From positions 1 to 45,946 of IMG/VR virus record IMGVR_UViG_3300021579_000289: 45,946 bases of DNA; one strand, 5' to 3'. Below, one piece after another: positions 24,499 through 43,816 of the stretch. The position numbers were made by a program, and so were the translations under genes. The first letter of the stretch is position 1; each line of letters starts with the position of its first letter. Under the pieces are notes generated by a model, which had not been told where the DNA came from, did no database searches, and saw nothing but the letters and a program-made list of their open reading frames with translations. The stretch is from a virus.

Positions 24499-25212
24499 TC
24501 AGAGAGTCGGCGCGCCGCTGCGCAGGTATTGTCCGGCCTCGTGCACCTGGTCGTTGCGGCTGAGCACTTTGAACCCCGGGCGCTTGTCGCTGAGATAGGC
24601 CATAGCCTTCTCGATATCGTTGCGGCCCGGGTAAGCGTCAGCCGGGTGCGTAGAGGGGGAATGCGACGGAGCCATGAGCGGGGCCGTGGCGGAGAAATGC
24701 ACGGCTCCAGTCGCCGGGCTGCCGAGCTGCGTCCCGTTGTGCCCCGCGACGATCGGCGTGGTGAGCAGTCGCTGCGCCGCGTTCAGCACCGGGTACTGCG
24801 CGCGCCATGCCGCGAGCCTCACCGGGTCGCCGGCGATGCCGATTCGTTCGCTCAGCAGGAGCGGCTTCAGCCGCTGCGACTGCGCATCGTCGAGTCGAAG
24901 GCTCGCGGCCACTTGCTCGACCTCCGCCTCGGCGTCCTTCTTGTCGTACGCGCCCAGGCGCTCGTTCGCGGCATTCAGAGCACCGAGGTACTCCTCCGCC
25001 TTCTTCGCCTTCTCGACGAGCGTTGCCGCATCCGTCAGGAGCGACTGGGTATCGCTCGAGCCGAAGAGCGCGAGCAGCTTGTCGAGTGCGTCTCCCTGCG
25101 CCGCGGACGCTTCCGCGCTCGCGAGGATCTGCGCGTCCGTCGCCCCATCGCGGAGCTTGAGGATCTTGCAGAGGGCCGACATGAGGGTGGGGCTGATGTT
25201 CGCGACGGACAT
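24499..25212 (-). CDS. internal scaffold protein (Mu gpZ-like), nested in-frame start
   Basis: The ATG at 25212 (MSVANISPTLMSALCKILKL) lies in frame within the protease gene and is preceded by GGAGACCAAAAC, a good ribosome binding site. It yields 237 residues, helical and Ala/Glu/Lys-rich with coiled-coil character (AATLVEKAKKAEEYLGALNA), ending in a basic tail (AGQYLRSGAPTL). Nested protease/scaffold genes are known in Mu (gpI/gpZ) and lambda (C/Nu3). The scaffold would fill the prohead and then be cleaved. Confidence 0.65.
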   Translation of the reverse strand: MSVANISPTLMSALCKILKLRDGATDAQILASAEASAAQGDALDKLLALFGSSDTQSLLTDAATLVEKAKKAEEYLGALNAANERLGAYDKKDAEAEVEQVAASLRLDDAQSQRLKPLLLSERIGIAGDPVRLAAWRAQYPVLNAAQRLLTTPIVAGHNGTQLGSPATGAVHFSATAPLMAPSHSPSTHPADAYPGRNDIEKAMAYLSDKRPGFKVLSRNDQVHEAGQYLRSGAPTL

Positions 25213-26169: not shown

Positions 26170-26373
26170 GCGGCCCAGCTTGCGGAGCTGGGCTTGCGCT
26201 GACCCGGTGCTACGGTCGCCGCATGTGGCTGTTCACCGCGTTCGGGGTTCGCGCTCCCGAAGAGCGGAGCCCCGAGGAGCGGTGCCCCGAACCGAATCAG
26301 CGTCCGACTTACGAGCTTCGCCACGCGGCCCAGCTTGCGGAGCTGGGCTTGCGCTGACCCGGTGCTACGGTCG
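26091..26373. repeat. 128-bp direct duplication at protease gene start
   Basis: Bases 26091-26218 are repeated at 26246-26373 with a single mismatch (CAG versus CGG at 26126/26281), period 155 bp. Each copy contains an 8-bp stem-loop, GCCCAGCT-TGCGG-AGCTGGGC (26173-26193 and 26328-26348), and ends in GGTGCTACGGTCG. The copy nearest the protease supplies its start. The other copy lies between the gpF stop and the protease. One mismatch in 128 indicates a recent event. Confidence 0.9.
26223..26357 (+). CDS. possible 44-aa antisense ORF across the duplication
   Basis: On the strand opposite to all neighbouring genes, ATG 26223 opens 44 codons: MWLFTAFGVRAPEERSPEER, ending PTYELRHAAQLAELGLR. The sequence TGCTACGGT lies 6 bases upstream, an extended -10-like element that would give a leaderless transcript. 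The protein is helical and charged and looks coding. Its body is copy 2 of the 128-bp repeat; copy 1 encodes the same C-terminus without a start. It may be a real moron gene, a host gene fragment, or chance. Confidence 0.3.
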   Translation: MWLFTAFGVRAPEERSPEERCPEPNQRPTYELRHAAQLAELGLR

Positions 26374-28302
26374 GGGCGGCCAGGCGGCGGGCTTCGTGAT
26401 CTCCGTCAGCTTGCCCTCAAGGAAGCTCGTCCGCGCTTCGAGCATGCCGATCATGCGCTCGCGGTCGAACGCCGTGAGGAACTTCCCCTCTGCCTCGACG
26501 AACTTGCGCCACCCACCGACGTCCCTCCGGAGTTCGATGATGCGCTTGATGCCACGGATCGCAGCGTCGCCCAGCTCTTCGGCGGATGTGACGCTGGCGG
26601 CCTCAGCGAGGCGCGCGTACCCGGGGTTGACGCTCGGGTCGAAGAAGGACTCCCACTCGGTGACGTTGCCGAGTGCCTCGACCGGTTTGCGCCCCGCGTT
26701 CGCGCGCGAGAGGAGCGCTCCGCCGTTGTCGATGCGGAAGAGCTTGCCGCGAGCGTCGACGACGATGTTTTCCAGCCCGAGGCCGGCCGCGTCCCAGTTG
26801 GCGGTGAGCACGTCCGCTGCGAATCCCTCGAGCGCCTTCTTCGCGAGTCCTCGAGTGAGTCCCTTGTCGGCGAGCGTCTTCGCTTTCGGAATGAGCTCAC
26901 TCGCGTAGGCGAGCTTCCCGTCGCGCACGAAGGTGACGCTCTTCACAGTGCCGAGACCGAGCTTCGCGTAGATCTTGTTGGCGATGTGCTCGCCGGCCGC
27001 CTGCGCAGGGTCGTCGTAGAACTTGACGTAGCGCTTCTTGCCGTCCAGTCCTTCATACACCCCGCCCGGGTTGCTGCCGGTTGCATCGGAGATCTTCTTC
27101 GCGAGAACGTTCTCCGCGCTCGCGACCGCTGGCTTGGGCGTCGGTGGAGGGGGAGGCAACACCGCGGGCGGCGGTGGAGGGGGAGGCTTCGGCCCCTCGA
27201 AGGGTATCGACACGGGCAGAGCACCAGGGCCCACCTGCGGGGCGGCCGGCGGGGGCGGAGCGGGCGGCGCCTGTTGCGCGCTGTCGTTCGCAGGCTTCGC
27301 CGGCGGCGTCTGCAGCGACGGCGGTACCGTCGGCAGCACCCGCGTGCCCGAGTCGAAGTCCGGATCCGGGAGCCCCTGCGGCTCGGGACCGATCGGCGCC
27401 TTGTGCTGGTCGATCCAGCGCTGCGAGCGCGCGACGACGCGGCACCGGCAGTTGTACCCGAACGGCGGATAGGCGCGCTTCCAGAACGGGTGATTCGCCG
27501 GGAGGATCACACCGTGCGCTCGCTTGTGCGCGGGGCGAGCTCTCGAGTCGTCGACGCCACGGATCTGCCAGTACGGCATGAGCGCGACGACGGCCGGCGA
27601 CGTCATCTGCGCGTGCCGGCCCGTGGCATACGCGCTCGCGACGTTCGTTCTGTAGATCGTCTCGACGTGGCTCGGATTCGACGGCGTCCAGCCCGCGGAC
27701 TCGAGGCGCTCCCGGACGAACTTCTCGAACTCGCGCAGGTTCGGGCCCTCGTAGACCCACCCCGTCTCGGGATCCTTCTGCGTCCGCCCCTGGCTGCCCT
27801 GCAGCTGACGAATGAGCTCGGCGTGTGCCGTGTCGAGTAGTTCCTGCTTTGCGAGCCCGGCGACCGTGAAGGCCTTCCGTTTCGCCTCGCGCTCGAGCAG
27901 GTCGAAGGCCGCCCGGGGCATCACCTCGCGCTTGCGGAACTCCGCAATCGCTTCGGCGAAGGGGAGGTGACCGAACGCTCCAGCCGTGTCCGTTCCGGTC
28001 GCCGCGAACTTCGCGATCTCGACCTCGTCCTCGTGCTGGACCTCCCAATCCACGTCCAGGATGCCGAGCATCAGGCTGCGTAGGATCTGCTCCTCGACGA
28101 CCTTCGCGAAGGCGTGCGTGTCGAAGCGCTCACCCGCCGCAGCGATGGCCCCGCGGATCCCGGCCTCCGTGTCGCGGCCCGAGCATGCGTCCGCAATCTG
28201 CTGCGCCCACCGCTTGGTAATCTCGGCGCCGCTCGCGACGCCAGCGTCGACCAGGTGCTCGGGGGAGCCGTTCACCGTCGCGGGCTGTGCCGCGCAACAC
28301 AC
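26365..28302 (-). CDS. gpF minor head protein fused to HipA/PI-kinase-like domain
   Basis: A 645-residue protein. Residues about 70-300 are the Mu F/SPP1 gp7 head morphogenesis domain (HVETIYRTNVASAYATGRHA; PFWKRAYPPFGYNCRCRV). Residues 324-392 are a polyproline linker with runs of seven and five Pro. Residues 397-560 resemble a small HipA/phosphatidylinositol-kinase-like fold: GSNPGGVYEGLDGKKRYVKF with Lys427, Glu438 in EHIANKIYAK, a catalytic-loop-like NWDAAGLGLENIVV (Asp504, Asn512) and a metal-binding-like RIDNGG (Asp525). gpF proteins are packaged in few copies, so the kinase could be delivered with DNA. GTG 28302 has no ribosome site, and the frame is open upstream into the portal gene. 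Confidence 0.8.
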   Translation of the reverse strand: MCCAAQPATVNGSPEHLVDAGVASGAEITKRWAQQIADACSGRDTEAGIRGAIAAAGERFDTHAFAKVVEEQILRSLMLGILDVDWEVQHEDEVEIAKFAATGTDTAGAFGHLPFAEAIAEFRKREVMPRAAFDLLEREAKRKAFTVAGLAKQELLDTAHAELIRQLQGSQGRTQKDPETGWVYEGPNLREFEKFVRERLESAGWTPSNPSHVETIYRTNVASAYATGRHAQMTSPAVVALMPYWQIRGVDDSRARPAHKRAHGVILPANHPFWKRAYPPFGYNCRCRVVARSQRWIDQHKAPIGPEPQGLPDPDFDSGTRVLPTVPPSLQTPPAKPANDSAQQAPPAPPPPAAPQVGPGALPVSIPFEGPKPPPPPPPAVLPPPPPTPKPAVASAENVLAKKISDATGSNPGGVYEGLDGKKRYVKFYDDPAQAAGEHIANKIYAKLGLGTVKSVTFVRDGKLAYASELIPKAKTLADKGLTRGLAKKALEGFAADVLTANWDAAGLGLENIVVDARGKLFRIDNGGALLSRANAGRKPVEALGNVTEWESFFDPSVNPGYARLAEAASVTSAEELGDAAIRGIKRIIELRRDVGGWRKFVEAEGKFLTAFDRERMIGMLEARTSFLEGKLTEITKPAAWPPRP

Positions 28303-28337
28303 GTGGTCGCCGTACGTCTCGCGGGCGGCGAGGCAGA

Positions 28338-29909
28338 CTAGGAACTGCCCGAACTCCTCGAGAGCAAGTCGAGCAGTCTTGCGGCCCTCGCCAAGACTAA
28401 AGGGTCGTGGGCGCCACCACGGAGCGTCGACGGATCGCCGGTGGCCTGGCCGCCCTGGCCCAGCGGAGAGCCGCCCCCACCGCCGCTTGAGTTATCACTG
28501 GGTGAGGGACTTCCCGGATCTTGCGCATTGGGTGAGGGACTTCCGGGGAGCTCTGGGGCCGCCTGCGGCGGCTGCTTGATGACGCGATCGGTAGGCCCCG
28601 GCTTCGTCCACCCGGTGCGCTCGTATACCTCGTCCTCGACGAGCGGGAGGCCGAGCGCGAGCGTCTTCGTTGCGACGTCGGCCTCCACGCCGCGGTTGCG
28701 CGGGAGCTCGTAGCGGATCTCGATGCGCGGGCAGTGGTCTAGGTACTCCGGGCCCTCGTTCAGTACGATGATGTCTGCGGCGAGTTGCTCGGTGAGCAGG
28801 TCGGAGAGGTTCCAGCCGTCGGCCTCGACGACGCTGCCCTGTTCCTCCTGCCCCACCTCGTCGCCGGTGGAACCGAGCGCGCCCGGCTTCGCGTCGGTGG
28901 TTCGCGTGGTGCCGAGTACCAGCTTCGAGATCTGATCATCCGCGTCCATCCCTGCGTCGCGGTGGTTCTGCCCGCTGCGGTCACCGGGAACGCTCGTCTC
29001 GACTTTCACGCCGGGGGGCATGACAGCGGTGGAGCTCCCGCCCATGCCGTCGATGACCTCGCCGGCCCTGTCGAGAGCGTCGGGCTGCACCGCCGGGTTG
29101 TCCGTGTAGGCGATGCGCCACGGCTTCCCGAACACCTCGAGCAGCACCATGCGCTCACGCCAGCTGAAGCGCTTGTGAAAGCTCCAGTACAGGCAGCGCG
29201 GCCCGAAGCCCTCGCGCTCCGGCGTCTCGTTGAACAACTGCGGAGTGAAGCAGATGAACTTCAGCGGCACTTCGGCGAGGTCCAGGCCAACCGGGGAGAA
29301 CCCCGTGCCGTCGAAGACCCCGTCTCTGACCCGTAACTCACGTTGCGGACCGAAGGACAATCGCCGCGGCTGGATCCAGTTGAGTCTGTCGACGCGCCAG
29401 CGGACGTTACCCGCGGGGTTCTCCCGCCATACCTTCTCGAGCGCTGCTCGGCCGTGGAGATGGCCCCAGTTCAGCCGGAGAATCGACTGTTTCAGGTTCG
29501 GGATCCACGCGAGCTGCTGACGTACCATGTCCGCGTAGCGAGTCGCGCGGGGCTCGTCGATCCCGTCGCCCTTCGCGGGCACCACGGTGATCTTTGCGGA
29601 TGCGAGAGACCGGAACCGCTTGCCTGTCGCCCCAGCATAATGCGTGTCGATGAACAGCGTCTCATTGCTGAGGTCTGTCAGGTCCCGCATGAACCCGAGA
29701 TTTGCGGATACGAGTACCTGCTCGATTGTTGCCGGTGTGAGCGCGCGACCGAAGTACCGGCGGTACTGCTCCATCTCCGGCACGCCATTGAGCATCGTGG
29801 CCTGAAGATCGTCACGGAACTCTGAGGATCTGAACCACCAGCGGCCGTCGCCCGTTCGATAGCCCTGGACTCTGCGCGACGACATCAGCGCTGCTTCTGC
29901 CACGGCCAC
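28338..29909 (-). CDS. portal protein, Mu gp29-like (DUF935)
   Basis: This 523-residue portal forms the DNA gateway of the capsid. Recognised segments are SSEFRDDLQATMLNGVPEME, LSNETLFIDTHYAGATGKRF, LRLNWGHLHGRAALEKVW, YWSFHKRFSWRERMVLLEVF with FGKPWRIAYTDN, and SKLVLGTTRTTDAKPGALGS. These match the DUF935 family. The C-terminal 80 residues are Pro/Ser/Gly-rich (SPSDNSSGGGGGSPLG). The start overlaps the upstream gene by 25 bases. It is followed by gpF as in Mu. Confidence 0.88.
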   Translation of the reverse strand: MAVAEAALMSSRRVQGYRTGDGRWWFRSSEFRDDLQATMLNGVPEMEQYRRYFGRALTPATIEQVLVSANLGFMRDLTDLSNETLFIDTHYAGATGKRFRSLASAKITVVPAKGDGIDEPRATRYADMVRQQLAWIPNLKQSILRLNWGHLHGRAALEKVWRENPAGNVRWRVDRLNWIQPRRLSFGPQRELRVRDGVFDGTGFSPVGLDLAEVPLKFICFTPQLFNETPEREGFGPRCLYWSFHKRFSWRERMVLLEVFGKPWRIAYTDNPAVQPDALDRAGEVIDGMGGSSTAVMPPGVKVETSVPGDRSGQNHRDAGMDADDQISKLVLGTTRTTDAKPGALGSTGDEVGQEEQGSVVEADGWNLSDLLTEQLAADIIVLNEGPEYLDHCPRIEIRYELPRNRGVEADVATKTLALGLPLVEDEVYERTGWTKPGPTDRVIKQPPQAAPELPGSPSPNAQDPGSPSPSDNSSGGGGGSPLGQGGQATGDPSTLRGGAHDPLVLARAARLLDLLSRSSGSS

Positions 29910-30325: not shown

Positions 30326-30943
30326 TTACGGGACGTTCGGCGAGCCGTCCTGTCGGTAGTCCTGTGGGTACTCCGCGGCGTCCTGTCGCCGCGCCCGCTC
30401 AAGCGCCTCCGCCGGGTCTTCGGAGCCAAACTCGGCACGCAGGATCCTGCGGAGGACAGCGTCGGGGTGAATCTCGTCGAGCGAGGCGATCGGCGGGAGC
30501 TTTCGGGCTTTCCTGCACTGATTGACGTGCTCGAGCGAGCCGACCGGAGCCGCGGCATCCGCGTCGAGCACCATCTCGTGCATATGCTCGATGCGGAACA
30601 CCAGGTCCCCGAACGGCACGAACTCGCGGTGCGTGATGTCCGGATTCTTCGTGTCGAACGGGTCCTCGTCGACCCGATCGCTGGTCATATCGATCGGCAC
30701 ATCGGCGGTCGGCAGTGAAGCCAAGATCGCTTGCGCCTGCACGAGCATCATCGGGTCGAAGGAGACCACGCGATATACGGCGCCCTTCGGCGCTCCGTCC
30801 TGCGCCCAGTGCAACCAGCATATCTGCCGAGCGTCCTCGAGCACATCGAATCCCGACTCGTCGTCGCTCGGCACGACAGCGACGAACCCGAGTGCCGACT
30901 TGACCTCTGCGATGAAGCGTCTCCGGACGTCCGGGTGTGCCAT
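30326..30943 (-). CDS. hypothetical protein paired with tailspike, 205 aa
   Basis: I do not recognise this protein. It starts MAHPDVRRRFIAEVKSALGF at an ATG that overlaps the tailspike stop as TGATG, so the two are translationally coupled. The middle region is mixed alpha/beta (QICWLHWAQDGAPKGAVYRV, EFVPFGDLVFRIEHMHEMVL), and the C-terminal 60 residues are charged and helical. Coupling to a tailspike suggests a tail-fibre chaperone or assembly factor, but no known chaperone motif is present. Longer readings in this frame up to 32551 are tailspike shadow. Confidence 0.65.
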   Translation of the reverse strand: MAHPDVRRRFIAEVKSALGFVAVVPSDDESGFDVLEDARQICWLHWAQDGAPKGAVYRVVSFDPMMLVQAQAILASLPTADVPIDMTSDRVDEDPFDTKNPDITHREFVPFGDLVFRIEHMHEMVLDADAAAPVGSLEHVNQCRKARKLPPIASLDEIHPDAVLRRILRAEFGSEDPAEALERARRQDAAEYPQDYRQDGSPNVP

Positions 30944-33900
30944 CAGTTGTATGCCTTCCTGACCGAAGTCTTGCACGACACCGCGCTCGCGTCGACAGTG
31001 CCGCCGCTGCCGTTGTAGCACCGCCAAGTCACCGTGTTCGCCGCCGTGACGTATGCATCGAAGATGAGTCCGGCCGGCGCCGAAGCCACCGCCTTGTCGA
31101 CGTAATCCCCCGTGGCCGCCCCAGTGATCGTGACGGTCGCCGTCGCCACTGCACCCGCCGCGAGAGCCGCGCCGAAGTTCAGCGCCGACGTGTTGGAGGC
31201 GAACGGGATTGTCGGGCCTTCGGTCCAAGTCAGGTTGTTCGAGCCGTCGATCGACGTGACGACGGCGCACATCGATTGTCCAGCGGCCGCATCCGTGTAC
31301 CACCAGATGGAACCGACCGTCCACACGCCTGGCGAGTCGTTCAGCGTCGCGATCGTCGTGCTCGTCGTCGTCGGGCGCGACGCGCGGAGACCCCATTGGG
31401 CTCGTTTCGGCGCTGCTGTCGTGCCCACGGCGATCCCGCGGCGCAGCATTATGTGGCCAGGGCCGAGCGGGAAGTTCGGGCCGGTCAACGTCCACGCCAT
31501 TCCCAGCGAGGAGCCGCTGTAGCTCATCGCGTATTCGTTGGAAAAGCCGCTGAACACACCGAATTGGTATCCAGCGTCCCCGGTTTTGCCGAACTGCGTG
31601 GTGATGTCCGTTCCCCACAGACCCATCCGCATCCAGTGCCCCGCGGAACCGCCGGGGAGGCAGTACATGCTCGCGAATTTGCCGGCGCTCGCGTTCTCGC
31701 TGTAGCCGGCGAGCTTCGGCTCCGGCTTTCCCGGGCGATTGGCGACCGTCCCACCGACGATGAGCGCGGGCGCGGCGACGAGTGAGTCGGGCGGCAGCTC
31801 CTGGTAGCAACCGAACAGAACGCTCTGTCCCTGGTCCACCTTGTAGGACACGCCCCAGTTCGACGCCGTGTGGCACTGAGTGAACGTGTTCCCGATAAGC
31901 GCCGAGTCCCAGTAGCCGCCGGCGTCCGGGTCGGTTCCGACGGTGGTTGGCGTGCCGCTCAGATTCGTGATGGTGGTCGATGGCAGGGCGATCGACGTCG
32001 AGTGTCGGACCGTGATCGTTCCAGCGGCGGGGGCGTTCCAGGCCGAGCTGTGCGCGTCGACGAACAGGTCGACAGCCTCGAAGGTCCAGTCGCTGGTGCC
32101 TGCGGGGACCTGCCCGCTGGTCGGAGTTGCGTCGGGTCCGGCGCTCACGTTTCGGTACGTGAGACCGTACTTGCTGTCGCTGATGACGATGTTCCCGGCG
32201 ACCACGCCAGAGATCGCGGACCCCGAGTTCGTCAGTCGGATCGAGAACCGCGCGCGGACGCCAGGCACTTTCCGCTTGCCGTTGCCGGAAGAGTCGCAGT
32301 TCTCGAAGTGGCAAGCGTTCGCGTCGCTCCCATCGACCCTCAGGCCCCACTTGCCGTTGCCGTAGAGCCGACAGCGACGGACACTGCTGATGTTCGCGCC
32401 GCTCGGGTACCTGCCCACCGTGGCGTCCGCTGCGTTCGTAGCGCTCGTCCAGCCCGTCACTCCGCCGAGCGTCGTCGTGAGCGATCCGGCGGGAGCAAAG
32501 ACCGGCGCGCCGTAGCCGATGAACGCTGCGCCGGCGAGAATGCCCTCGCACTCCATCGTCACCGGCACCGTCCCAGCGCCAGCTGCCACAGCCGAGACGT
32601 TGCGGAACACGATGGCCGCGTCATCGCTCTTCTGCACGCGCAGCTTCTGCCCAGTGGCCGCCGTGCCAGAGACCGCGCCGGTGAAGGAGGCGTCGAAGAC
32701 ACACGTGACCACGGCCGAGCTGCGCCCGCCCTGCACGGTCGCATCGATGTGCAAGCCCTGCGCCGAGAAGTTGTAGACCAGGCACTCGTCCACGTGCACG
32801 TTGGCCTGGGCGTAGATGCCGTGGAAGTCGTTCGAGGCGGTCGCGGCGTTGCCGTTCGCCCACAGGATGAGCCCGGTGATCGAGGTCCACGCGAGCTGAT
32901 TCGTCGGCTGCCCGTTGGTGAACAGAAAGCGGGTTCGGATGCCGTGCGTCTCGGCCGGGAAGATCAGCTTTCCGCGCCCGTTCCCATTCGCGACACGCCC
33001 CTTGGCTGGCCCGCGGATCGTGATGCCGTTCTTCGTCACATGCATGGTGGCGTCGAACCCGTAGACGCCACGGCGCACGAACGTGATCTCACCCGCGTTG
33101 TCCGCTGCCTCCTGCGCGCGCGACCAAGCCTGGTCGTATTTCGCGAACCCGACGGCCGCCATGCCGTCGGAGTCGAGGCGCCAATCGTCGCAGTCGTAGC
33201 AGTAGTAGTCGTAACCGCGATCCGCGTCCGCCGTGAGCACGTTGCCGACGCCGGACGTCCAGCGGTAGTAGCCGGCGCCCGTGCCCTCTTCGACGGCGAG
33301 GTGAATGCCGAACCCGACTTGCGCCACCGCGTCTAGAGTCGCGAGTCGGTACAGTTTGCAGGTGGCGCCGGAGACCTCGGCGACCTGGTAGGGGCCCTTC
33401 TCGCTCGAGACGGCCTGCCCGTTGAGGAAGACCCGGTCGCCATTTGTGAGCGTGACCCCGCCCTGCGCGACGCTCACGCCGGAGATGACCGCCCCCGTGT
33501 ACAGCGTGTCTGGCGTCGGGTTCGGGGCTGCCGCGTAGACCGCGTATCCGGCCAGGTTCGTGGCCACGAGAGCCCGGACGACCATGCGCGGGACGCGACG
33601 CCGGCGGCGCGCGATCGGCTTCCCACCGGAGGTCGACAGGTCCACGTCCTCCAGCTGCAGCTGCGTCGATGTCGCCACCGAGGCGCCCGTCGCGTCGTAC
33701 ACGCTCAATCCAGCGTTGGATCCGACCAGAGAGAACGTCATCGCCGTAGTCCCCGGCGTGATCGGGTCCGGCGTTGTGAGCACGGCGACTTTCCCGCCGT
33801 TCTGCGTGCCGAGCGTTACCGGGATGAGCGACCCGGAGATCGCCTCACTTGTCGTGTCGAAGTCCGTTGCCCGCGTCCACGCGCCGGAGTCCTGGATCCA

Positions 33901-34533
33901 CACGCCGTTCTCGACGGGGTTCGTCTGCTGCCACACGAGCGTGCGGCGGCCGGCGACGCCTGCGACTCCGTCGATCGTCTGAATCCCCGAGAGCGCGATG
34001 TTCGCTGTCGTCGCAACGACGCACGATTCCTTGTACGCGCCAGAGCCGGCGCTGCCGGTGAAGCCCTCGACCATCTCATTCTGCGCGTCCTCCGCGCCGG
34101 TAGCGCCGTACGCGGCCCCCTCCTCCTTCACGACCTTCCGCAGCCCCGCACTAGACCGGATAGTGACCAATCGCTCGAACACGTAGTCCGGGTGAGGACG
34201 ACCGAGCGCATCGAGCCCGCCATTTACAGTGCAGCGAATTCGCCACGAGTGCCCGCCTGGGCTGACGCCTGGCAGGGTCGTAGTCACTGCGGCAGCTGGC
34301 GTCGCAGCGTCGACCTTTTGCCCCGTCGTCACGCCGACGAGCGATAGCGTCGGAGCATCGAGAGAGCATCGAGGGGAGTTTGGATCTGTGGGGTCGTACG
34401 TCTCGAATGTCACGCGCTGCACGACACTCGCCGCCCATCCCTCAAGCTGCAGGTGAAGGGTTTGCCCCGCAGTTCCGTCGAATCCGGAAGCGCTCGCAGG
34501 CGATGTTTCGATCAAAAAGCGCGCGTAGTTCAC
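30943..34533 (-). CDS. tailspike with right-handed beta-helix
   Basis: This 1196-residue protein probably recognises and may cleave a host surface polysaccharide. Residues 165-235 contain an attachment-type domain seen in many phage fibres (ALSGIQTIDGVAGVAGRRTL, WQQTNPVENGVWIQDSGAWT). Another such segment follows near 345-430. From about residue 470 a pectate-lyase-like beta-helix runs for over 350 residues (AGEITFVRRGVYGFDATMHV, KNGITIRGPAKG, DFHGIYAQANVHVDECLVYN, CRLYGNGKWGLRVDGSDANA). The C-terminal 250 residues are beta-rich (YQFGVFSGFSNEYAMSYSGS). Its site between large terminase and portal is unusual, so it is probably a mobile receptor cassette. Confidence 0.85.
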   Translation of the reverse strand: MNYARFLIETSPASASGFDGTAGQTLHLQLEGWAASVVQRVTFETYDPTDPNSPRCSLDAPTLSLVGVTTGQKVDAATPAAAVTTTLPGVSPGGHSWRIRCTVNGGLDALGRPHPDYVFERLVTIRSSAGLRKVVKEEGAAYGATGAEDAQNEMVEGFTGSAGSGAYKESCVVATTANIALSGIQTIDGVAGVAGRRTLVWQQTNPVENGVWIQDSGAWTRATDFDTTSEAISGSLIPVTLGTQNGGKVAVLTTPDPITPGTTAMTFSLVGSNAGLSVYDATGASVATSTQLQLEDVDLSTSGGKPIARRRRRVPRMVVRALVATNLAGYAVYAAAPNPTPDTLYTGAVISGVSVAQGGVTLTNGDRVFLNGQAVSSEKGPYQVAEVSGATCKLYRLATLDAVAQVGFGIHLAVEEGTGAGYYRWTSGVGNVLTADADRGYDYYCYDCDDWRLDSDGMAAVGFAKYDQAWSRAQEAADNAGEITFVRRGVYGFDATMHVTKNGITIRGPAKGRVANGNGRGKLIFPAETHGIRTRFLFTNGQPTNQLAWTSITGLILWANGNAATASNDFHGIYAQANVHVDECLVYNFSAQGLHIDATVQGGRSSAVVTCVFDASFTGAVSGTAATGQKLRVQKSDDAAIVFRNVSAVAAGAGTVPVTMECEGILAGAAFIGYGAPVFAPAGSLTTTLGGVTGWTSATNAADATVGRYPSGANISSVRRCRLYGNGKWGLRVDGSDANACHFENCDSSGNGKRKVPGVRARFSIRLTNSGSAISGVVAGNIVISDSKYGLTYRNVSAGPDATPTSGQVPAGTSDWTFEAVDLFVDAHSSAWNAPAAGTITVRHSTSIALPSTTITNLSGTPTTVGTDPDAGGYWDSALIGNTFTQCHTASNWGVSYKVDQGQSVLFGCYQELPPDSLVAAPALIVGGTVANRPGKPEPKLAGYSENASAGKFASMYCLPGGSAGHWMRMGLWGTDITTQFGKTGDAGYQFGVFSGFSNEYAMSYSGSSLGMAWTLTGPNFPLGPGHIMLRRGIAVGTTAAPKRAQWGLRASRPTTTSTTIATLNDSPGVWTVGSIWWYTDAAAGQSMCAVVTSIDGSNNLTWTEGPTIPFASNTSALNFGAALAAGAVATATVTITGAATGDYVDKAVASAPAGLIFDAYVTAANTVTWRCYNGSGGTVDASAVSCKTSVRKAYN

Positions 34534-34572: not shown

Positions 34573-37086
34573 TCAGAACCCGCCGGAGTTAAGGGCTCGC
34601 CGCTCGCCACGCACCGCCCCACCCTCGGTGCTCGGCGCGGACGTGAGCCAGTTGTGGCCACCAGAGAGCCCATCGACTTGGTCATCGTGGCGCCCCTTGG
34701 GAAACGCCTCGAGCTCCCCAAGGAACGCGCCGTTCCACGCGCCGCGCACGACCGGGATGTTGCCCGCCTTCGCCTGAGCTGAGACGGGGCCGGCACGCAC
34801 GATCTTATTCCCCATGCCCTTGGTCGCAGGAACCGCCACGACGTGCCACCGCGCGAGCAGCTGCATGTAGGCGGCGATCTCCGAGACGCCCGAGGCGCCG
34901 GGCTCTTGCTCGAGCAGGACGGTGAATCCGAAGCGTCCGTACTTTTGCTCGTCGAGCTCCGCCGTGCGCTTGATGGTCTCCATCACGTCGCCGGGTTTGC
35001 CCCGCAGGCGCACGACGTCCTCGACGTAGGTCCTGGCGCGCAGCGTGCCGTCTCCCTCCCTCGCGAGCAGCACGCCGACGGTCCAGTCCGGATCGTTCAC
35101 CGCGCGCGGCTCGAGTGACGCCTGCCCCTTGAACTTCTCCTCCGTCGCGGCGCGGTCCCAGAACCGAACGCGGCGAGCGTGCGCCGGCGCGGCCATGACC
35201 AGCGGGAACCAGCCGCGCTGGAACATCAGCCCCGCGGAGTACTCGGTCTCCCAATCGTTCTCGCGGAGCCGGGCGTACTGCACGGGATCGAGCATCGAAA
35301 GCCGGTGGACGTAGTCCGGATCGTTCTGATGTAGGTGCGGGTTGTCCTCGAGGGCGGACTTGATGAACTGCCGGCCGAAAGCGCCCGTCGTGCCCTTCGG
35401 CACGTATCGCTCCGCACCGCGCTCGGTGAGGAACCACAAAACCGCGCCATCTCCAACGCGCGGCCCCTGGTACTCCGGAGAGGTGCGCACCCACGGTGCG
35501 AAGCGGTCACGCACCCATCCAGGCTCGGGGTTCATCGACGAGCGCAGGCGGATCGGGATGCCCTGCGCGGAACGAAGCCTGGAGACGAAGTACGTGTACT
35601 GAAAACTGGAGAACGTCGGGAGCTCGTCGAACCCGGCGTACTGGTAGGGCGCGCCTCGGTACTCGAGTACGTCCTTATCGTGCTGCAGGTGACCGAGCTG
35701 AATGCGCCCACACGGATTGCCGGCGCCGTCGTAGAATGTCCACCGGTGCTTGCTCTGGTTGTAGTCGCCGCCGACCGGCTTGTACATTTCGAAGGACCGC
35801 GGGATCACCCACTCCTCGAGCTCGCCGAACGTGCGGCGGAAGATGATCCCCCTGAACCCGCGCACGTGGCACCAGCGGTAGGGGATCGCGAGGAGCCAGT
35901 CGGTGTTGTGCGTCGGAACCATAGAGCGGCTCGCCAGGAAGAGCCCCGTCGGGTTGTCCACGGTGATGCAACGCATCGGCGTCCCCGGCACGGGGTCGCA
36001 CGCGACGATGTACCGGAACTGCGTGGTGCGTCTCGAGGCCAGGCGCTGGCGCGAGCGCTTCCGAGGCAGGCGAAAAACGAACTCACTTGGCGTCCACTTG
36101 ACATCCCACTTCGGGCCGCAGTCTAGACCGTTCAGCGTCGCGCGGCCTTCAACGATCCTCGCCTTCCACCCGAGCGAGACGATGAGCTCGTGCGCGGCGC
36201 GCGCGAGACGCCACTTGGTGGTCGTAAACTCGACACTCCCCGACTCCGTGACGGTGCCATCGGTATCGAGCAGCCCCTGGAGCAGAGCGAGACGCTGAGC
36301 GGCGGACGCCCGGAGGTACGACGCCGGAACGTGCTTGTTGCCGAGTACTCCGAGTCCGCGCAGCTTGGCCTGAAGCCCGAGTACGCCACGGGTGCGCGCC
36401 CGGCCACTGTTCCCGTTCTTCTCTTCGACGCCGAGCATGAAGCCCGTCGCTTCAAAGGCTGCGAACACCTCGGGATCTGCGCTCGTGATCCGCCCGCCCC
36501 GTGTGTTCCCGTCGCCGAGCCACACACCCAGCAGGTACGGGTCGAGCGGTAGGGACGCCTCGGGCAACTGGAGCGCGGCAGCGACCGGGATCGCGTGGTT
36601 CCGGCGTCCTCGCACCGTGAGCGTCTCCGCGATCTGCCGGGTTGTGCGCACCGTGCCAGCGGGAGCCGCTTTCGCGGGCGGTGGAGCGGTGCGGTTCCGC
36701 TCTGAGACCGCAGCGGAGAACACCACGGAGCGCTGCGTCAAGGCGCGCAGCTCCGCGGCGGTGAAGGTGATCCATCGGTGGTCCGCGCACGCCTCGATCG
36801 TGGTGCCGTCGTCGAACGTCAGTCGATACGCCACCGGCGACGGGTCGACCGGATGCAAGGCGAGCACGCGGCACGTGTCTCCGCGCTCCGTGAACAGCTC
36901 ATCACCGACGGAGAGATCACCGATGCTCGACCAGCCCCGCGGCGTCGGTACCGGCTCGTCGAGGCGCAGCATCTTCCCGCCCCCGGCCCCGCCTCCGTAT
37001 CCGAGCTCGAACACTCCAGACGCCAGAGCCCGCGTTTGCGGGCCCGGGTTTGGCTGCCAGAGGATCGACTCGGGATCGTGTGTCAC
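34573..37086 (-). CDS. terL: large terminase subunit interrupted by an intein
   Basis: An 837-residue precursor of the DNA-packaging motor. Extein N (1-38) ends GYGGGAGGGK. The intein is residues 39-394, and extein C starts TDWLLAIPYRW. Splicing restores the Walker A GGAGGGKT. Walker B is probably YAGFDELPTFSSFQY. The C-terminal nuclease domain shows RRVRFWDRAATEE, FTVLLEQEPGASGVSEIAAY and RHDDQVDGLSGG with acidic residues expected to bind metal. The mature protein would be 481 residues, normal for the family. Small terminase lies two genes upstream, in the order of transcription. Confidence 0.92.
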   Translation of the reverse strand: MTHDPESILWQPNPGPQTRALASGVFELGYGGGAGGGKMLRLDEPVPTPRGWSSIGDLSVGDELFTERGDTCRVLALHPVDPSPVAYRLTFDDGTTIEACADHRWITFTAAELRALTQRSVVFSAAVSERNRTAPPPAKAAPAGTVRTTRQIAETLTVRGRRNHAIPVAAALQLPEASLPLDPYLLGVWLGDGNTRGGRITSADPEVFAAFEATGFMLGVEEKNGNSGRARTRGVLGLQAKLRGLGVLGNKHVPASYLRASAAQRLALLQGLLDTDGTVTESGSVEFTTTKWRLARAAHELIVSLGWKARIVEGRATLNGLDCGPKWDVKWTPSEFVFRLPRKRSRQRLASRRTTQFRYIVACDPVPGTPMRCITVDNPTGLFLASRSMVPTHNTDWLLAIPYRWCHVRGFRGIIFRRTFGELEEWVIPRSFEMYKPVGGDYNQSKHRWTFYDGAGNPCGRIQLGHLQHDKDVLEYRGAPYQYAGFDELPTFSSFQYTYFVSRLRSAQGIPIRLRSSMNPEPGWVRDRFAPWVRTSPEYQGPRVGDGAVLWFLTERGAERYVPKGTTGAFGRQFIKSALEDNPHLHQNDPDYVHRLSMLDPVQYARLRENDWETEYSAGLMFQRGWFPLVMAAPAHARRVRFWDRAATEEKFKGQASLEPRAVNDPDWTVGVLLAREGDGTLRARTYVEDVVRLRGKPGDVMETIKRTAELDEQKYGRFGFTVLLEQEPGASGVSEIAAYMQLLARWHVVAVPATKGMGNKIVRAGPVSAQAKAGNIPVVRGAWNGAFLGELEAFPKGRHDDQVDGLSGGHNWLTSAPSTEGGAVRGERRALNSGGF
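35905..36972 (-). mobile_element. intein with LAGLIDADG homing endonuclease in terL
   Basis: A 356-residue intein (precursor residues 39-394). Block A is DEPVPTPRGWSSIGDLSVGD, but position 1 is Met, not Cys or Ser. Block B is GTTIEACADHRW with Trp105. LAGLIDADG-type motifs are LLGVWLGDGNT (185-195) and LLQGLLDTDGTV (268-279), with KHVPASYL between. Block F is RCITVDNPTGLFLAS with Cys373, and block G is MVPTHN followed by Thr. A non-nucleophilic residue 1 plus Trp-B, Cys-F and Thr-G (Thr392) is the class 3 signature. Insertion is between Lys and Thr of Walker A. All motifs appear intact, so both splicing and homing may be active. Confidence 0.9.
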
Positions 37087-39022: not shown

Positions 39023-39252
39023 TCGCTGCGGTCCTCCCCGATGGTCACGTGGATACGCGCGAACGGGCGGCGCGCCTTGTCGCTGTGATCGGTGCCGATC
39101 GGGAAGCAAAGGCGGTCGGCGAGCTCCCACTGGGCTCCCTCCGGCAGTCCGGAGACGCCGAGGTAGCACCAGTTCTTGGTGAACTTCTGCCCGTAGACGC
39201 TCGTCGCGCCGGCGGCCGAAAGCTCGGTGAGGGCCCGCTCAAAGAACGTCAC
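39019..39252 (-). CDS. hypothetical protein, 77 aa
   Basis: A small alpha/beta protein (FFERALTELSAAGATSVYGQ, NWCYLGVSGLPEGAQWELAD, RPFARIHVTIGEDRSE) of unknown function. The ATG overlaps the stop of the DnaC-like gene as ATGA, and its own stop overlaps the next GTG. Probably co-translated with the replication genes. I see no motif that allows a functional call. Confidence 0.55.
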   Translation of the reverse strand: MTFFERALTELSAAGATSVYGQKFTKNWCYLGVSGLPEGAQWELADRLCFPIGTDHSDKARRPFARIHVTIGEDRSE

Positions 39253-39926
39253 CGGCGGCCCTCGGGACTTCCCGCCTGAACGACGATGACGCCCGCCGCA
39301 ACGAACCGTCGCACTATCGCGCCGTCGTAATGGGCCTCGAGTTCGCTTCTCCCGTCCGTGCTCGCGAAGCTCTTGGCGGTCGTGGCCACGGTCACCAGCC
39401 GGGACTCGTATCGGGCGGCCAGGACTTCGCTCACCGCTTTCGGGTCTCGGTCCCAGCCCATGTCATCGAGGAACAGGACGCTCGCGCGGCTGGCGGACAG
39501 GATCTCGGGCGCATCGCCCCTGCCCAACGGGTGCTCGCGCCGTGCCCGCTCGAGCTCGGTCGCGCTGAACCAGCGCATGCCCCGGGCGAGGTTCCAGCGG
39601 GAGCCCCCTTGCGCCACGCCGGTCCCGAGGAGCCGGCGGAAGATGTACCCGGCCGCCGAGGACTTTCCGATCCCCGTGCCACCGATGAGCAGCAGCGAAC
39701 CGTGCTCAGGGAGCCACGTACGCGCATGCTGGACGAGCTTCGGGCAGCCCATGCTCCCGATGAGCTCCGCCGGCTTCGCGACGCGCAGGTGAGGCGGCAG
39801 ACGGCCCAGGAACACGGAGGCGTCGGACGCCCGCTCTCGCCGCTCGATGGCGTCCACCTCGGCGTCCGAGAGCAGACGGAGCCCGGAGAGCAGGTTCGCC
39901 ACGTCGACTTGGCTCGGTTCAGACAA
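39249..39926 (-). CDS. DnaC/IstB-like helicase-loader ATPase
   Basis: A 225-residue AAA+ ATPase that probably loads the host replicative helicase at the phage origin. Walker A is GGTGIGKS (82-89) and Walker B is VLFLDDMG (150-157); a sensor-like region follows (RLVTVATTAKSFA), then a C-terminal arginine-finger-like stretch (YDGAIVRRFVAAG). The N-terminal region (residues 1-60) would contact helicase. It lies immediately after the O-like initiator, overlapping it by 8 bases, as in lambda O-P or DnaC-type pairs. No transposase is nearby, which argues against IstB. Confidence 0.8.
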   Translation of the reverse strand: MSEPSQVDVANLLSGLRLLSDAEVDAIERRERASDASVFLGRLPPHLRVAKPAELIGSMGCPKLVQHARTWLPEHGSLLLIGGTGIGKSSAAGYIFRRLLGTGVAQGGSRWNLARGMRWFSATELERARREHPLGRGDAPEILSASRASVLFLDDMGWDRDPKAVSEVLAARYESRLVTVATTAKSFASTDGRSELEAHYDGAIVRRFVAAGVIVVQAGSPEGRR

Positions 39927-40863
39927 TGCGCACCCCCTTCGAGTCGCGCGAGGCCACGAATGTCGGCGAGTTCTGCAGCGGCGCGTTGCGGACGGGGAAC
40001 TTGCCGCGTCCCTGCTTCTGGGCGGCCTCGACCTCGAGGAACTTGTTGACCTTCGAGTCGAACCACTCGAAATCGTGGAACCCCGTGAGTTTGTCCCGAG
40101 CCTGTGTCAGGGCCGTCTGGACGTCGGCTTCAGTCAGCTGGTTCGTCGCCGCCCAGTCCAGTTGTGTTTGCGACGGGAACCACGCCGAGAACGGGATCCG
40201 CTCGAAAAGAGGGTCGACGCGCACGGGCAGAGCGGCACCGTCGAACGTCCGCTGCGCCAGCCGAGCTCGCAGCGGAGAACCCTCGGCCGAGGGTGCTGGC
40301 GGGGGCGGCTGGGGGCCCGACTGCGCGCCGTGACCTGTCAGATCTTCAGCCACCACCTCTCGTTTAAGATCTGATCCGGAGTAGGAGTAGGATCCTGACG
40401 CGCGCGGGGCTGGCTCGGCTGGACCAGCCGGCTGGGTCTCCGGCTGGAACCGTCCGGCTGGTCCTCGGCTGGCTCGGCTGGCTCGTGCCATCCCACCTAG
40501 TTGGCTGGGCGTCGGCTGGTTGTCGGCTGGACCAGCCGACGATCCAGCTGGAGTGGTAGCGGGTCCGCCTGGCTTGCGCCCGTACACGTCGTGGTAGTCG
40601 TGCACGGCGTAGCCGCCTTCGATTCGCTCCCATAGCCCGCGGTCGACGAGTGCCTTGACGTAGGCGCGAGCCTTCGGTGTGGGCCACAGCGCGAGGCTCT
40701 GCGCTTCCGGGATGAAGTCGACGCGCTCGCCCCGGCGTCGCCGCTCGTCTTCCTTTCGGCGGCAATACATGAGGCCGCAGGCCCAGTACCAGGCGGCGCC
40801 TTCGCCGACGGCCTGCAGCTTCTCGTTCTCGTTAGCGTGGTCGTCGAGAAATGCCCAGCTCAC
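39919..40863 (-). CDS. replication initiator (O-like) with internal iterons
   Basis: A 314-residue protein. Residues 1-95 look like a winged-helix initiator domain (AVGEGAAWYWACGLMYCRRK, PKARAYVKALVDRGLWERIE, GGYAVHDYHDVYGRKPG). Residues 96-200 are a low-complexity Pro/Ala/Ser linker encoded by the CGGCTGG array. Residues 215-290 form a C-terminal helical domain (LFERIPFSAWFPSQTQLDWA, DFEWFDSKVNKFLEVEAAQK). Domain layout and DNA repeats in the middle resemble lambda O. It sits between a DnaA-domain-IV-like gene and a DnaC-like gene, so an initiator role is well supported by context, less so by sequence family. Confidence 0.65.
   Translation of the reverse strand: MSWAFLDDHANENEKLQAVGEGAAWYWACGLMYCRRKEDERRRRGERVDFIPEAQSLALWPTPKARAYVKALVDRGLWERIEGGYAVHDYHDVYGRKPGGPATTPAGSSAGPADNQPTPSQLGGMARASRASRGPAGRFQPETQPAGPAEPAPRASGSYSYSGSDLKREVVAEDLTGHGAQSGPQPPPPAPSAEGSPLRARLAQRTFDGAALPVRVDPLFERIPFSAWFPSQTQLDWAATNQLTEADVQTALTQARDKLTGFHDFEWFDSKVNKFLEVEAAQKQGRGKFPVRNAPLQNSPTFVASRDSKGVRIV
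40339..40374. promoter_or_regulatory. inverted repeat beside origin array, relatively AT-richer
   Basis: TCAGATCT (40339-40346) and AGATCTGA (40367-40374) form an inverted repeat with a 20-base loop, directly beside the iteron array. The segment is less GC-rich than its surroundings (CTCGTTTAAGATCTG), so it could be the first melting site of the origin. It lies in the initiator coding sequence. Confidence 0.4.
40406..40548. other. candidate replication origin: CGGCTGG iteron array
   Basis: CGGCTGG occurs exactly eight times, at 40416, 40429, 40441, 40455, 40466, 40475, 40513 and 40524. Near copies lie at 40407 and 40502. Spacing is mostly 9-14 bases, about one helical turn. Two copies are extended into the palindrome CGGCTGGACCAGCCG (40416-40430 and 40524-40538). 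The array lies inside the initiator gene, as in lambdoid phages. An alternative is that it only reflects low-complexity coding for the linker. Confidence 0.6.
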
Positions 40864-41234
40864 CGAGGATCCTCCCGGAGCGACAGCGCGAACCGTCCGA
40901 GCTCCGTGCCTTCCGCGATCGCTTTCGAGACCTTCTTCACCGCGTAGCTGACGCTCGAATGGTCACGGCCGCCGAGCAAGTGCCCGACGGCTTCGAGGGA
41001 GTGCCCGTTCTCGCGCAGGACCCACGCGACGGCATGGAGCGCGAACGCCGCACGCGAGCGCGGATGAGGGCGCCCCCGCTTGGTCCGCGCGACCAGATCT
41101 GCGGGGGCGAGCCCCACCCAGCGCGCCGCACGCGCCAGGAGGGCGTCCACCGGGTGCTCATGCGTCACCGGCGCCGGGCCCATCGGGACCACCGGCGCGG
41201 TGCAAGCGTGCCACTGCTGTTGCGTCTGCATCAT
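40860..41234 (-). CDS. DnaA domain IV-like DNA-binding protein
   Basis: A 124-residue protein whose C-terminal half resembles the DNA-binding domain of DnaA: HPVDALLARAARWVGLAPAD, RPHPRSRAAFALHAVAWVLR, and HSLEAVGHLLGGRDHSSVSY followed by AVKKV, where G-G-R-D-H-S-S-V is the DnaA-box recognition signature. The ATPase domain is absent, so it would bind DNA only. The ATG overlaps the RusA-like stop. It may bind the origin or compete with host DnaA. Classic DnaA boxes (TTATNCACA) are not seen nearby, so its target may differ. Confidence 0.7.
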   Translation of the reverse strand: MMQTQQQWHACTAPVVPMGPAPVTHEHPVDALLARAARWVGLAPADLVARTKRGRPHPRSRAAFALHAVAWVLRENGHSLEAVGHLLGGRDHSSVSYAVKKVSKAIAEGTELGRFALSLREDPR

Positions 41235-41779
41235 CCCGTCCAGACCTCCAATAGTCCCAGCCCGTACCCTTGCCGCGATTTCTCCCACCACGTGTCGATA
41301 CGGACGAAGCGCGGCGCATCGTCCTGCAGGAAGCCGAGCCCCTTCTTTTTGCGACCGCCGGGCTGCTTCGGTGCACGCGGCACGCACAGCTGATCGATTG
41401 CGACTTTGAACCCGTCGTTCATCTGATCCGGCTCCTTCACCGAGAACCGGATCGCGCGAATCTGCGGGCGGCCGGTGAGGGGAACCGGGCGGATCTGACA
41501 ACCCGCCTGGACCCACAGCAGACGCCAGATCTTTTCCTTCGTCGCCGCGAGGGCGAACACGGGCGCGTGCCGCGTCGCGTTCTGCGGCTGGCAGAGATCC
41601 AAAGGCAGAACGAAACGCGCAACCAACTCGCCCCGCCCGGGCACCCGTGGAAGGTGCCCAGCGCACGGCGCCGAGAGGATCTCGTCGGCACGCGCGAGGG
41701 CGTCCGGCACCGAGAATTCCTTCGGAGCGCACTTCGGCTTCGGTGGCCTCACGAGCACGAGGCGGGGCGGTTCGGTCAC
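41231..41779 (-). CDS. RusA-like Holliday junction resolvase (divergent)
   Basis: A 182-residue protein with a RusA-like layout: an N-terminal strand region (ELVARFVLPLDLCQPQNATR), a middle segment, KEPDQMNDGFKVAIDQLCVP (the D-x-x-N/D-x-x-K-x-x-x-D region), a Gly/Lys loop, then FLQDDAPRFVRIDTWWEKSR with the paired Asp and the closing YGLGLLEVW. Asp pairs would bind metal. Such enzymes resolve branched DNA before packaging. Family assignment is by pattern only. It lies within the replication genes. Confidence 0.6.
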   Translation of the reverse strand: MTEPPRLVLVRPPKPKCAPKEFSVPDALARADEILSAPCAGHLPRVPGRGELVARFVLPLDLCQPQNATRHAPVFALAATKEKIWRLLWVQAGCQIRPVPLTGRPQIRAIRFSVKEPDQMNDGFKVAIDQLCVPRAPKQPGGRKKKGLGFLQDDAPRFVRIDTWWEKSRQGYGLGLLEVWTG

Positions 41780-42474
41780 TGAGCGAGCTCCTGCTGGCGC
41801 GAGTCAGACCTACGGCCCCGGCGCCGCGGGGACTCGTCCTCGTCGTCTCCGCCCTCCCCGGTCGACGCTTTGGTCGGGACCGGGTGGATGCAGCCGGACG
41901 CGGTGGTCTCCTTCTCCGCGCCCGCGACGAACACAACTACCTGGTCCGCGTTCTTGGGCGGGTACCAGTCGACGTGCTCCGCATTCACGGCGTCCGCGGC
42001 GTACTGCACGACCTTGAGGGAGGCGCTGCCCATCGAGACGCAGTGTGCGCGGTCGCGCCGAGAGCTCGGGATCTTCACGTCCCTGGAGATCTGCGGGAAT
42101 GACGCTTGTGCAACGGCCACGTCGCTGGCCGCGGTGACGTGCAGCAGCGTCACCCCGTCCTCTTGGATCAACGCCTCCCGAAGCGACGCGCCGGAGAACG
42201 CGAACACCGCGACCTGTCTGCCCTCGAGCTCTTTTTGCGCGTCCACGAGGAATTTGCGGCAGACGAACCACTCCCCGTTCTTCAGCTTTGCCTGGTTGAT
42301 CCCCTCGAACTGGAGCGAGACCCGGCCGTTGTGCGCACGGGCGAAGCAGCGCTCGCCGTCGATCACGAACTGCACCCCGAAGAGATCTCGGGACTCCGAC
42401 TCCTTCGCCGCCGCCTCGAGCAGCGCTCGCAGCTCTTTTCTGCCCAGACTGATTCCGTTTTTGTTTGTCTGCAC
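41776..42474 (-). CDS. sliding-clamp-like protein (tentative)
   Basis: A 232-residue protein starting at GTG 42474 with AAGGAG 9 bases upstream. Its first half has DnaN-like features: LGRKELRALLEAAAKESESR, DLFGVQFVIDGERCFARAHN and the clamp-like phrase NGRVSLQFEGINQ. Later parts are DVKIPSSRRDRAHCVSMGSA, then NADQVVVFVAGAEKETTASG and CIHPV, similar in placement to the final strands of a clamp domain. The C-terminal 40 residues are charged and disordered. It is shorter than a bacterial beta clamp (about 365 residues), so it may be a two-domain clamp forming a trimer. The alternative is an unrelated DNA-binding protein. Confidence 0.5.
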   Translation of the reverse strand: MQTNKNGISLGRKELRALLEAAAKESESRDLFGVQFVIDGERCFARAHNGRVSLQFEGINQAKLKNGEWFVCRKFLVDAQKELEGRQVAVFAFSGASLREALIQEDGVTLLHVTAASDVAVAQASFPQISRDVKIPSSRRDRAHCVSMGSASLKVVQYAADAVNAEHVDWYPPKNADQVVVFVAGAEKETTASGCIHPVPTKASTGEGGDDEDESPRRRGRRSDSRQQELAQ

Positions 42475-42486
42475 TGTTGTTACTCC

Positions 42487-42894
42487 TTACTCCTGTCGTG
42501 TGCGGCTCGCGCGGTTGGTGGCCTTACACGCGCGGCAAAGCAGTAGTCTGCCGGCCTTCGCTTGGGCGCGAAGCCTGATGCCCGCGTAGACGTCGCGGTG
42601 ACCGCATGCCCGGTGAAGGACGCGCCATGTTGCGTTGCCGGCAACGTTCGCGAGTCGCTCTTCCACGAGGACTGCGCCGCCGAACAGCTCTCGCCCGGTC
42701 ATGTCCACGAGGGCGTACGAGTCGGGCCTCGAAGCGGGTCGCGTGAAGCGTGCGATCGCTGCGTCCATGTGGTGGCTGCGCACGAAGAAACGCAGTGTCG
42801 GCACATCGAGCCCAACGCGCGCGGCGGCCTCCTCGATGGTCCCGGCTCCACGAATCGCTTCAGCCACTTCGCGGCGGCTACGAATCGGAATCAT
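42487..42894 (-). CDS. HTH plus zinc-binding protein, hypothetical
   Basis: A 135-residue protein. Residues 5-45 form a helix-turn-helix (RREVAEAIRGAGTIEEAAAR, VGLDVPTLRFFVRSHHMD). The C-terminal part has the cysteine pattern C-x-x-H ... C-x-x-C (RACGHRDVY and LLLCRACKATNR), a probable zinc site. The ATG overlaps the methylase stop as ATGA. It may be an HNH-like or transcription-regulating protein; the HNH catalytic His-Asn pair is not evident. Function unknown. Confidence 0.6.
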   Translation of the reverse strand: MIPIRSRREVAEAIRGAGTIEEAAARVGLDVPTLRFFVRSHHMDAAIARFTRPASRPDSYALVDMTGRELFGGAVLVEERLANVAGNATWRVLHRACGHRDVYAGIRLRAQAKAGRLLLCRACKATNRASRTRQE

Positions 42895-43430
42895 TCCGCG
42901 GCCTCCACTTGGATCTCATCGCCGAACGTCGTCCAGCCAGGACGGGCCTCGCGGGCGAACAGCTCGAGGTAAGGCCCCGGGGCGAGGCGCTCCACGAGCC
43001 TGAAAAAGGCGATGGGCTTCGCGGAGTGCCTCCCCATCGCCGCGTCGAAGATCGAGCGCACCGATTTGCACTGAACAATCGACCTGCCGCGCGTTGCGAC
43101 GATCGCTGTCTCGTGCGAGTTGCGCACGGTGCGCCCCATCCCGAAATGGACGCGCCCTGAACGCGTGAGCTTCCGCCATACGATCTCGGACTTCGGCGTG
43201 AAGCCCCACGCCCTGCAGACGTCGAGGGCTTCCTGCTGCATTGCTGCGACGCGCCAGAGGAGTAGGATCGCGTCGTCCGCGACTTCAAACGAATGGTCTG
43301 CGAGGAACGACTTGATCTCCCCGATCGGAAGGCAACGGTAGTTCTTCGACGCTCCGCGCGCCTTGCCCGGCAGTGCGTCCTTGAAGAGCCACGGCGGATC
43401 CGCGACGACCACGCGATAGGGCTCGGTCAT
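42891..43430 (-). CDS. MT-A70 family adenine-N6 DNA methyltransferase
   Basis: A 179-residue protein with the catalytic motif DPPW at residues 11-14 (YRVVVADPPWLFKDALPGKA), then YRCLPIGEIKSFLADHSFEV, LLLWRVAAMQQEALDVCRAW and GFTPKSEIVWRKLTRSGRVH, and the C-terminal PGPYLELFAREARPGWTTFG. All are typical of phage MT-A70 enzymes. It uses S-adenosylmethionine to methylate adenine and probably protects phage DNA from restriction. The start at ATG 43430 overlaps the upstream stop as ATGA; residues in the longer frame look non-coding. Confidence 0.9.
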   Translation of the reverse strand: MTEPYRVVVADPPWLFKDALPGKARGASKNYRCLPIGEIKSFLADHSFEVADDAILLLWRVAAMQQEALDVCRAWGFTPKSEIVWRKLTRSGRVHFGMGRTVRNSHETAIVATRGRSIVQCKSVRSIFDAAMGRHSAKPIAFFRLVERLAPGPYLELFAREARPGWTTFGDEIQVEAAE

Positions 43431-43816
43431 CGGGTGCGCTCCGTGCGAAGAGCGTGCAAGGCGGCGGGCAGGTAGAGCTGTTCCACGTCCGGGGTGGCAA
43501 AACCCAACGCGGTGAAATCGCGCACGACGACCCCAAAGGCGATTGCGTGGGCTCTCTCGATCTCCATCCCCGGAGAGACACGCCCCCCGACGAGCCACAG
43601 CTCGTCGCAGCGCTCGACGAGCGCCAGGTCACATTCGAGTCCGAGGTCTCGGTGGTCCTCCGAGAGCACTCCAGAGAGCACGACCCAATCGGCGACCGTC
43701 GTGACGTTGAAGTGCATGACGGCCCAGGAGCACCACGCGGCGGCGTTCTGGCGGTTCGCCTCGCGATCGGGTCCAGACCCGAGCGGGTGGGCGATGTAGA
43801 CGACCTTGCGCTCCAT
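43427..43816 (-). CDS. nucleoside 2-deoxyribosyltransferase-like protein (DUF4406-like)
   Basis: A 129-residue protein with the Rossmann-like start VVYIAHPLGSGPDREANRQN, then ADWVVLSGVLSEDHRDLGLE, CDLALVERCDELWLVGGRVS and PGMEIERAHAIAFGVVV. This matches small phage proteins related to nucleoside 2-deoxyribosyltransferases: GP-x-x-x-N near the N-terminus and the conserved SxGMxxE motif. It may act in nucleotide salvage or base modification. It is translationally coupled to the XRE gene (stop and start share one base). Confidence 0.7.
   Translation of the reverse strand: MERKVVYIAHPLGSGPDREANRQNAAAWCSWAVMHFNVTTVADWVVLSGVLSEDHRDLGLECDLALVERCDELWLVGGRVSPGMEIERAHAIAFGVVVRDFTALGFATPDVEQLYLPAALHALRTERTR

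Follow-up and report, generated by a model that had tools for sequence, protein, structure and literature searches.

Inteins have been described at seven insertion sites in the terminases of mycobacteriophages, and one of these sites, TerL1-a, is the Lys-Thr junction of the Walker A motif (Kelley et al., 2016; PMC5050341). Class 3 inteins with a WCT triplet were described in the same mycobacteriophages (PMC5050341), and the terminase intein of cluster E mycobacteriophages reads as class 3 from its sequence. We analysed a stretch of 45,946 nucleotides from an uncultured phage (contig IMGVR_UViG_3300021579_000289 of the IMG/VR virus collection; henceforth the window) and compared the intein that it carries with these elements. 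Like the TerL1-a inteins of cluster E (e.g., those of TeardropMSU and Toto), the window intein combines the class 3 WCT triplet with a LAGLIDADG domain at the Walker A K/T position of a terminase (the slash marking the insertion point), and the identity is about 40% over the full length of 356 residues. It differs from them in having Cys at position B:7 where the TerL1-a inteins have Ser, and in residing in another terminase family and in a high-GC uncultured phage. The terminase intein of Rhodobacter phage RcMenchie is also class 3, lies at GGGK/T, has a CxxHxW block B and is 37% identical over its full length, but its terminase extein is different. The DnaB inteins of M. smegmatis (6BS8) and M. 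chimaera (6RIX) share the catalytic set with the window intein, including the His65 and Trp67 numbering, the F:4 Cys and the G:5 Thr, whereas they are mini-inteins and lie in DnaB. LAGLIDADG class 3 inteins at the terminase K/T junction are already documented (TerL1-a; PMC5050341) and are common in phages. Given this precedent, the arrangement is not new and the window intein is not novel in kind; the block B Cys is the only small difference that we noted.

The insertion site and the terminase exteins

The terminase large subunit precursor is encoded on the minus strand (34573-37086) by an ORF of 837 residues with a GTG start, all of whose codons are open without frameshift or stop. Its assignment relies on matches to phrog_979, Pfam and TIGR01630: the C-extein matches the terminase large subunit family phrog_979 with an E-value of 1.3e-79, and Pfam Terminase_6N/6C and TIGR01630 give weaker matches to terminase protein than PHROG 979. 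The translated precursor runs from ...ELGYGGGAGGGK into MLRLDEPVPTP...MRCITVDNPTGLFLASRSMVPTHN and from there into TDWLLAIPYRW. The N-extein (36973-37086, minus strand) comprises residues 1-38, ends in YGGGAGGGK and aligns with the N-termini of intein-free TerL proteins. The insert (35905-36972, minus strand), delimited by translation and alignments, spans residues 39-394, and the C-extein of 443 residues (34576-35904, minus strand) begins at residue 395 with the Walker A Thr, which is Thr+1 of the intein. The C-extein contains a Walker B-like GFDEL and the nuclease-domain Asp motifs FWDRA and HDDQVDGLSG, and in the aligned region it shares 40% identity with the Methanoculleus virus L4768 terminase. 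In alignments to TerL homologues, both exteins retain the conserved terminase motifs.

The Walker A motif GGGAGGGK/T is thus split by an insert of exactly 356 codons. A search of viral and genome collections for C-extein relatives yielded 151 homologous terminase ORFs, in 126 of which the Walker A-like motif is unbroken, mostly as GGAAGGGKS or GGAAGGGKT. The sequence predicted for the spliced window protein, GGGAGGGKT, occurs exactly in five of these 126 ORFs. Among the remaining 25, one has an intein and 24 fall outside the Walker A search pattern, several being truncated and several having a variant motif (e.g., GGAAFGGK). Once joined, the flanks of the window insert align without gaps to the intein-free TerL homologues. 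Since these homologues read straight across the site, both boundaries are fixed independently of intein motifs. The insertion, which a preliminary description had placed between the Walker A Lys and Thr with a length of 356 residues, therefore proved exact to the base, and it lies at the TerL1-a type of site, between the Walker A Lys and the Thr/Ser of a phage terminase large subunit.

Splicing residues, class and predicted fold

The residues named in the preliminary description (Met at position 1, W105, C373, T392 and two LAGLIDADG motifs) are all present, and their numbers are right in precursor numbering. In intein numbering M39 becomes residue 1, W105 residue 67, C373 residue 335, T392 residue 354, H393 and N394 residues 355 and 356, and T395 residue +1. 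The Trp of the WCT triplet is Trp67 (block B:12; 36772-36774, minus strand), with His65 (B:10) two residues ahead of it and Cys62 at B:7. The predicted initiating nucleophile is Cys335 (block F:4; 35968-35970, minus strand), and the C-terminal splice junction is formed by Thr354, His355 and Asn356 (block G:5-G:7; 35905-35913, minus strand). These three triplet residues line up with Trp B:12, Cys F:4 and Thr G:5 of known class 3 inteins, and the His at B:10, the His at G:6, the Asn at G:7 and the Ser/Thr at +1 are represented by H65, H355, N356 and T+1. An alignment of 11 sequences has 14 invariant columns, among them Trp67, Cys335, Thr354 and Asn356. When 13 inteins of cultured phages were aligned, many of them placed at K/T or K/S, the F:4 Cys and the G:5 Thr were found in all 13 and the B:12 Trp in all except that of Vibrio phage JA-1. 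The terminase intein of this phage (L016) is class 3-like, keeping the F:4 Cys and the G:5 Thr, with HIN replacing HxW.

Between blocks B and F lie two intact LAGLIDADG motifs, YLLGVWLGDGN at residues 146-156 (36505-36537, minus strand) and LLQGLLDTDGTV at residues 230-241 (36250-36285, minus strand; Pfam LAGLIDADG_3, E 6.7e-8), and each has Asp at the catalytic position (LLGVWLGDGN and LLQGLLDTDG). An AlphaFold (AF2) model of the intein, built from 17 sequences, has a mean pLDDT of 90.2 and a HINT-plus-LAGLIDADG fold. Foldseek aligned the whole model to PI-SceI with a TM score of 0.75, normalised by query length; for the splicing domain, 6BS8 and 6RIX gave TM scores of 0.82-0.87 by target length, and the model also matches many predicted intein-bearing terminases of phages. 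Judged by its sequence and predicted fold, the insert is a class 3 intein with a LAGLIDADG homing endonuclease domain, and the class proposed in the preliminary description is borne out by the alignment, the fold match and the intein-free homologues.

We weighed this assignment against two other readings of the same ORF. A class 1 or class 2 intein with another boundary might be considered because Pfam sees the LAGLIDADG part alone and the generic intein models of Pfam and NCBIfam match weakly and do not name a class. However, residue 1 is Met (in relatives Ala, Arg, Met or others) and offers no Cys, Ser or Thr as nucleophile, the F:4 Cys stands in a complete WCT triplet, and the intein-free site confirms the boundary. 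A phmmer search of the PDB returned class 3 DnaB inteins first (6RIX at E 2.6e-21, also 6BS8 and 6RIY), the alignments covering both splicing halves, whereas the class 1 gp41-1 intein was far weaker (E 0.0011); tblastn gave full-length matches to phage terminase inteins (E 2e-47), and with E-values this low the likeness to inteins is not due to chance. The search ranking and the fold match of the splicing domain thus place the intein in class 3 over class 1 or 2. We dropped the class 1/2 assignment, which we regard as having next to no chance of being right, on account of residue 1, the WCT triplet and the database ranking. The ORF could instead hold a splicing-dead intein or a pseudogene, leaving this terminase copy inactive, as the uncommon Cys at B:7 might suggest; there is precedent for a class 3 intein pseudogene (PMC3196547). 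Yet every signature and catalytic residue is present, neither a frameshift nor a stop occurs over 837 codons, the model is confident across the whole splicing domain, both exteins keep the terminase motifs, and the B:7 Cys recurs in four other inteins. We therefore judge a dead intein to be highly improbable. The class 3 reading stands with high confidence: the window very probably carries a full-length, probably active phage-type class 3 intein at a TerL1-a-type Walker A K/T site of a phage terminase.

Relatives and genomic setting

The closest intein that we found, in L004 and L006, has a splicing domain 56% identical to that of the window intein. In both records (positions 4001-4603 in each) it is a mini-intein at the Walker A K/S position of a different terminase family, and the L004 extein is 24% identical to the window terminase. 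This intein shares Met1, the B:7 Cys and the Walker A site of a terminase with the window intein, and it differs in being a mini-intein, its endonuclease mostly deleted and the first motif decayed to LGVRLGANN, as against LGVWLGDGN in the window. A close intein that sits in a distant terminase and has lost most of its endonuclease fits horizontal transfer and a cycle of homing and decay. The same terminase family as that of the window includes a homologue (L005) with an intein at the same K/T position, but there the intein is a mini-intein of 181 residues without endonuclease. Related inteins were found at E below 1e-5 in 435 phage records, including phages of Mycobacterium, Gordonia, Rhodobacter, Vibrio, Salmonella, Bacteroides and others, and also on plasmids of several bacteria; among the terminase relatives their distribution is sporadic. 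Strict peptide patterns of the window intein, run against 84,980 bacterial and archaeal genomes, revealed no relative, and the phage records contained no near DNA match. We found no intein-free copy of the same phage that would point to recent homing, and since the GC contents of intein (68.3%) and extein (67.4%) are alike, base composition gives no sign of recent arrival.

Genes near the terminase encode a Mu-like portal, a MuF-like head protein, a Mu I-like protease, a major head protein, a tail sheath, a tape measure and baseplate proteins, which shows that the phage is contractile-tailed and that this is its packaging and structural module. Mu-like genes for portal, MuF and protease (24499-29909, minus strand) stand alongside a non-Mu terminase of the PHROG 979 type. 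A structural or tail-fibre-like ORF of 1196 residues (30943-34533, minus strand) has an uncommon placement, lying between the genes for terminase and portal; several PHROGs for head decoration and tail fibres match an internal region of it. Elsewhere in the window, the product of a gene at 40860-41936 (minus strand) matches the DnaA C-terminal helix-turn-helix at E 5e-7, just under the Pfam cut-off, and adjoins a DnaC-like helicase loader (39249-39926) and a replication-initiation-like protein (39919-40863). A gene for an MT-A70-type adenine methyltransferase (E 3.6e-20) is located at 42891-43598 (minus strand).

Splicing, homing and the question of a switch

From the intact residues and the fold, we infer that the intein splices, cuts DNA and homes. 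By analogy with the class 3 splicing scheme (PMC5222942, PMC7664689), Cys335, activated by His65 and Thr354, would attack the Lys38-Met39 bond to form a branched thioester, the N-extein would pass to Thr+1, and Asn356 would cyclise with the aid of His355, so that the exteins join and GGGAGGGKT is restored. The step at the N-terminal junction may be tuned differently from that of M. smegmatis DnaBi1, since B:7 is Cys62 in the window intein and not Asp. The LAGLIDADG domain is predicted to cut intein-free terminase genes at their P-loop codons, by which the element would spread through homing.

Because the Walker A Lys is parted from its Thr, the unspliced terminase should not hydrolyse ATP, and it is a sound inference that DNA packaging depends on splicing; an equal argument has been made for TerL packaging (PMC5050341). 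The dependence of packaging on splicing, put forward in the preliminary description, is thus reasonable, but its further suggestion of a condition-dependent switch finds no support. Such a switch, in which a reversible block of splicing, for instance a Cys62-Cys335 disulfide or zinc, gates activation of the terminase, would have precedents: M. smegmatis DnaBi1, which is a class 3 intein in a P-loop, is inhibited by oxidation when Cys48 and Cys118 form a disulfide (PMC6195587), and zinc is reported to inhibit the splicing of DnaB (PMC7360933). The window intein has Cys62 (codon at 36787-36789, minus strand) at B:7, where Asp62 of DnaBi1 lies near residue 1 in the active site (PMC6195587). This Cys, in the form CxxHxW, occurs in a subset of class 3 inteins, including those of L004, L005, L010 and L192, the position being usually Asp, Thr, Ser or Gly elsewhere. 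However, the partner Cys48 of DnaBi1 is replaced by Ala48, the endonuclease has kept its motifs intact, as would be expected for an element maintained by homing, and with 126 of the 151 homologous ORFs unbroken and one fetched ORF carrying an intein, nearly all relatives do without it, so the family does not need a splicing switch. We consider a conditional switch very unlikely, and it is very doubtful that a reversible disulfide or metal site formed by Cys62 and Cys335, a cysteine pair unlike that of DnaBi1, makes maturation of the terminase, and so packaging, sensitive to redox or zinc. That inteins are rare in this terminase family, and that the endonuclease is intact, speaks for a selfish homing element, and the intein is most likely such an element rather than a tuned switch.

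The window intein adds an uncultured phage whose head module is Mu-like to the carriers of class 3 terminase inteins. At one P-loop site, a clear set of alleles ranges from intein-free through mini-intein to full-length, which should be useful for studies of homing and decay, and the Cys-for-Asp substitution in block B is a small variation that is easily testable.
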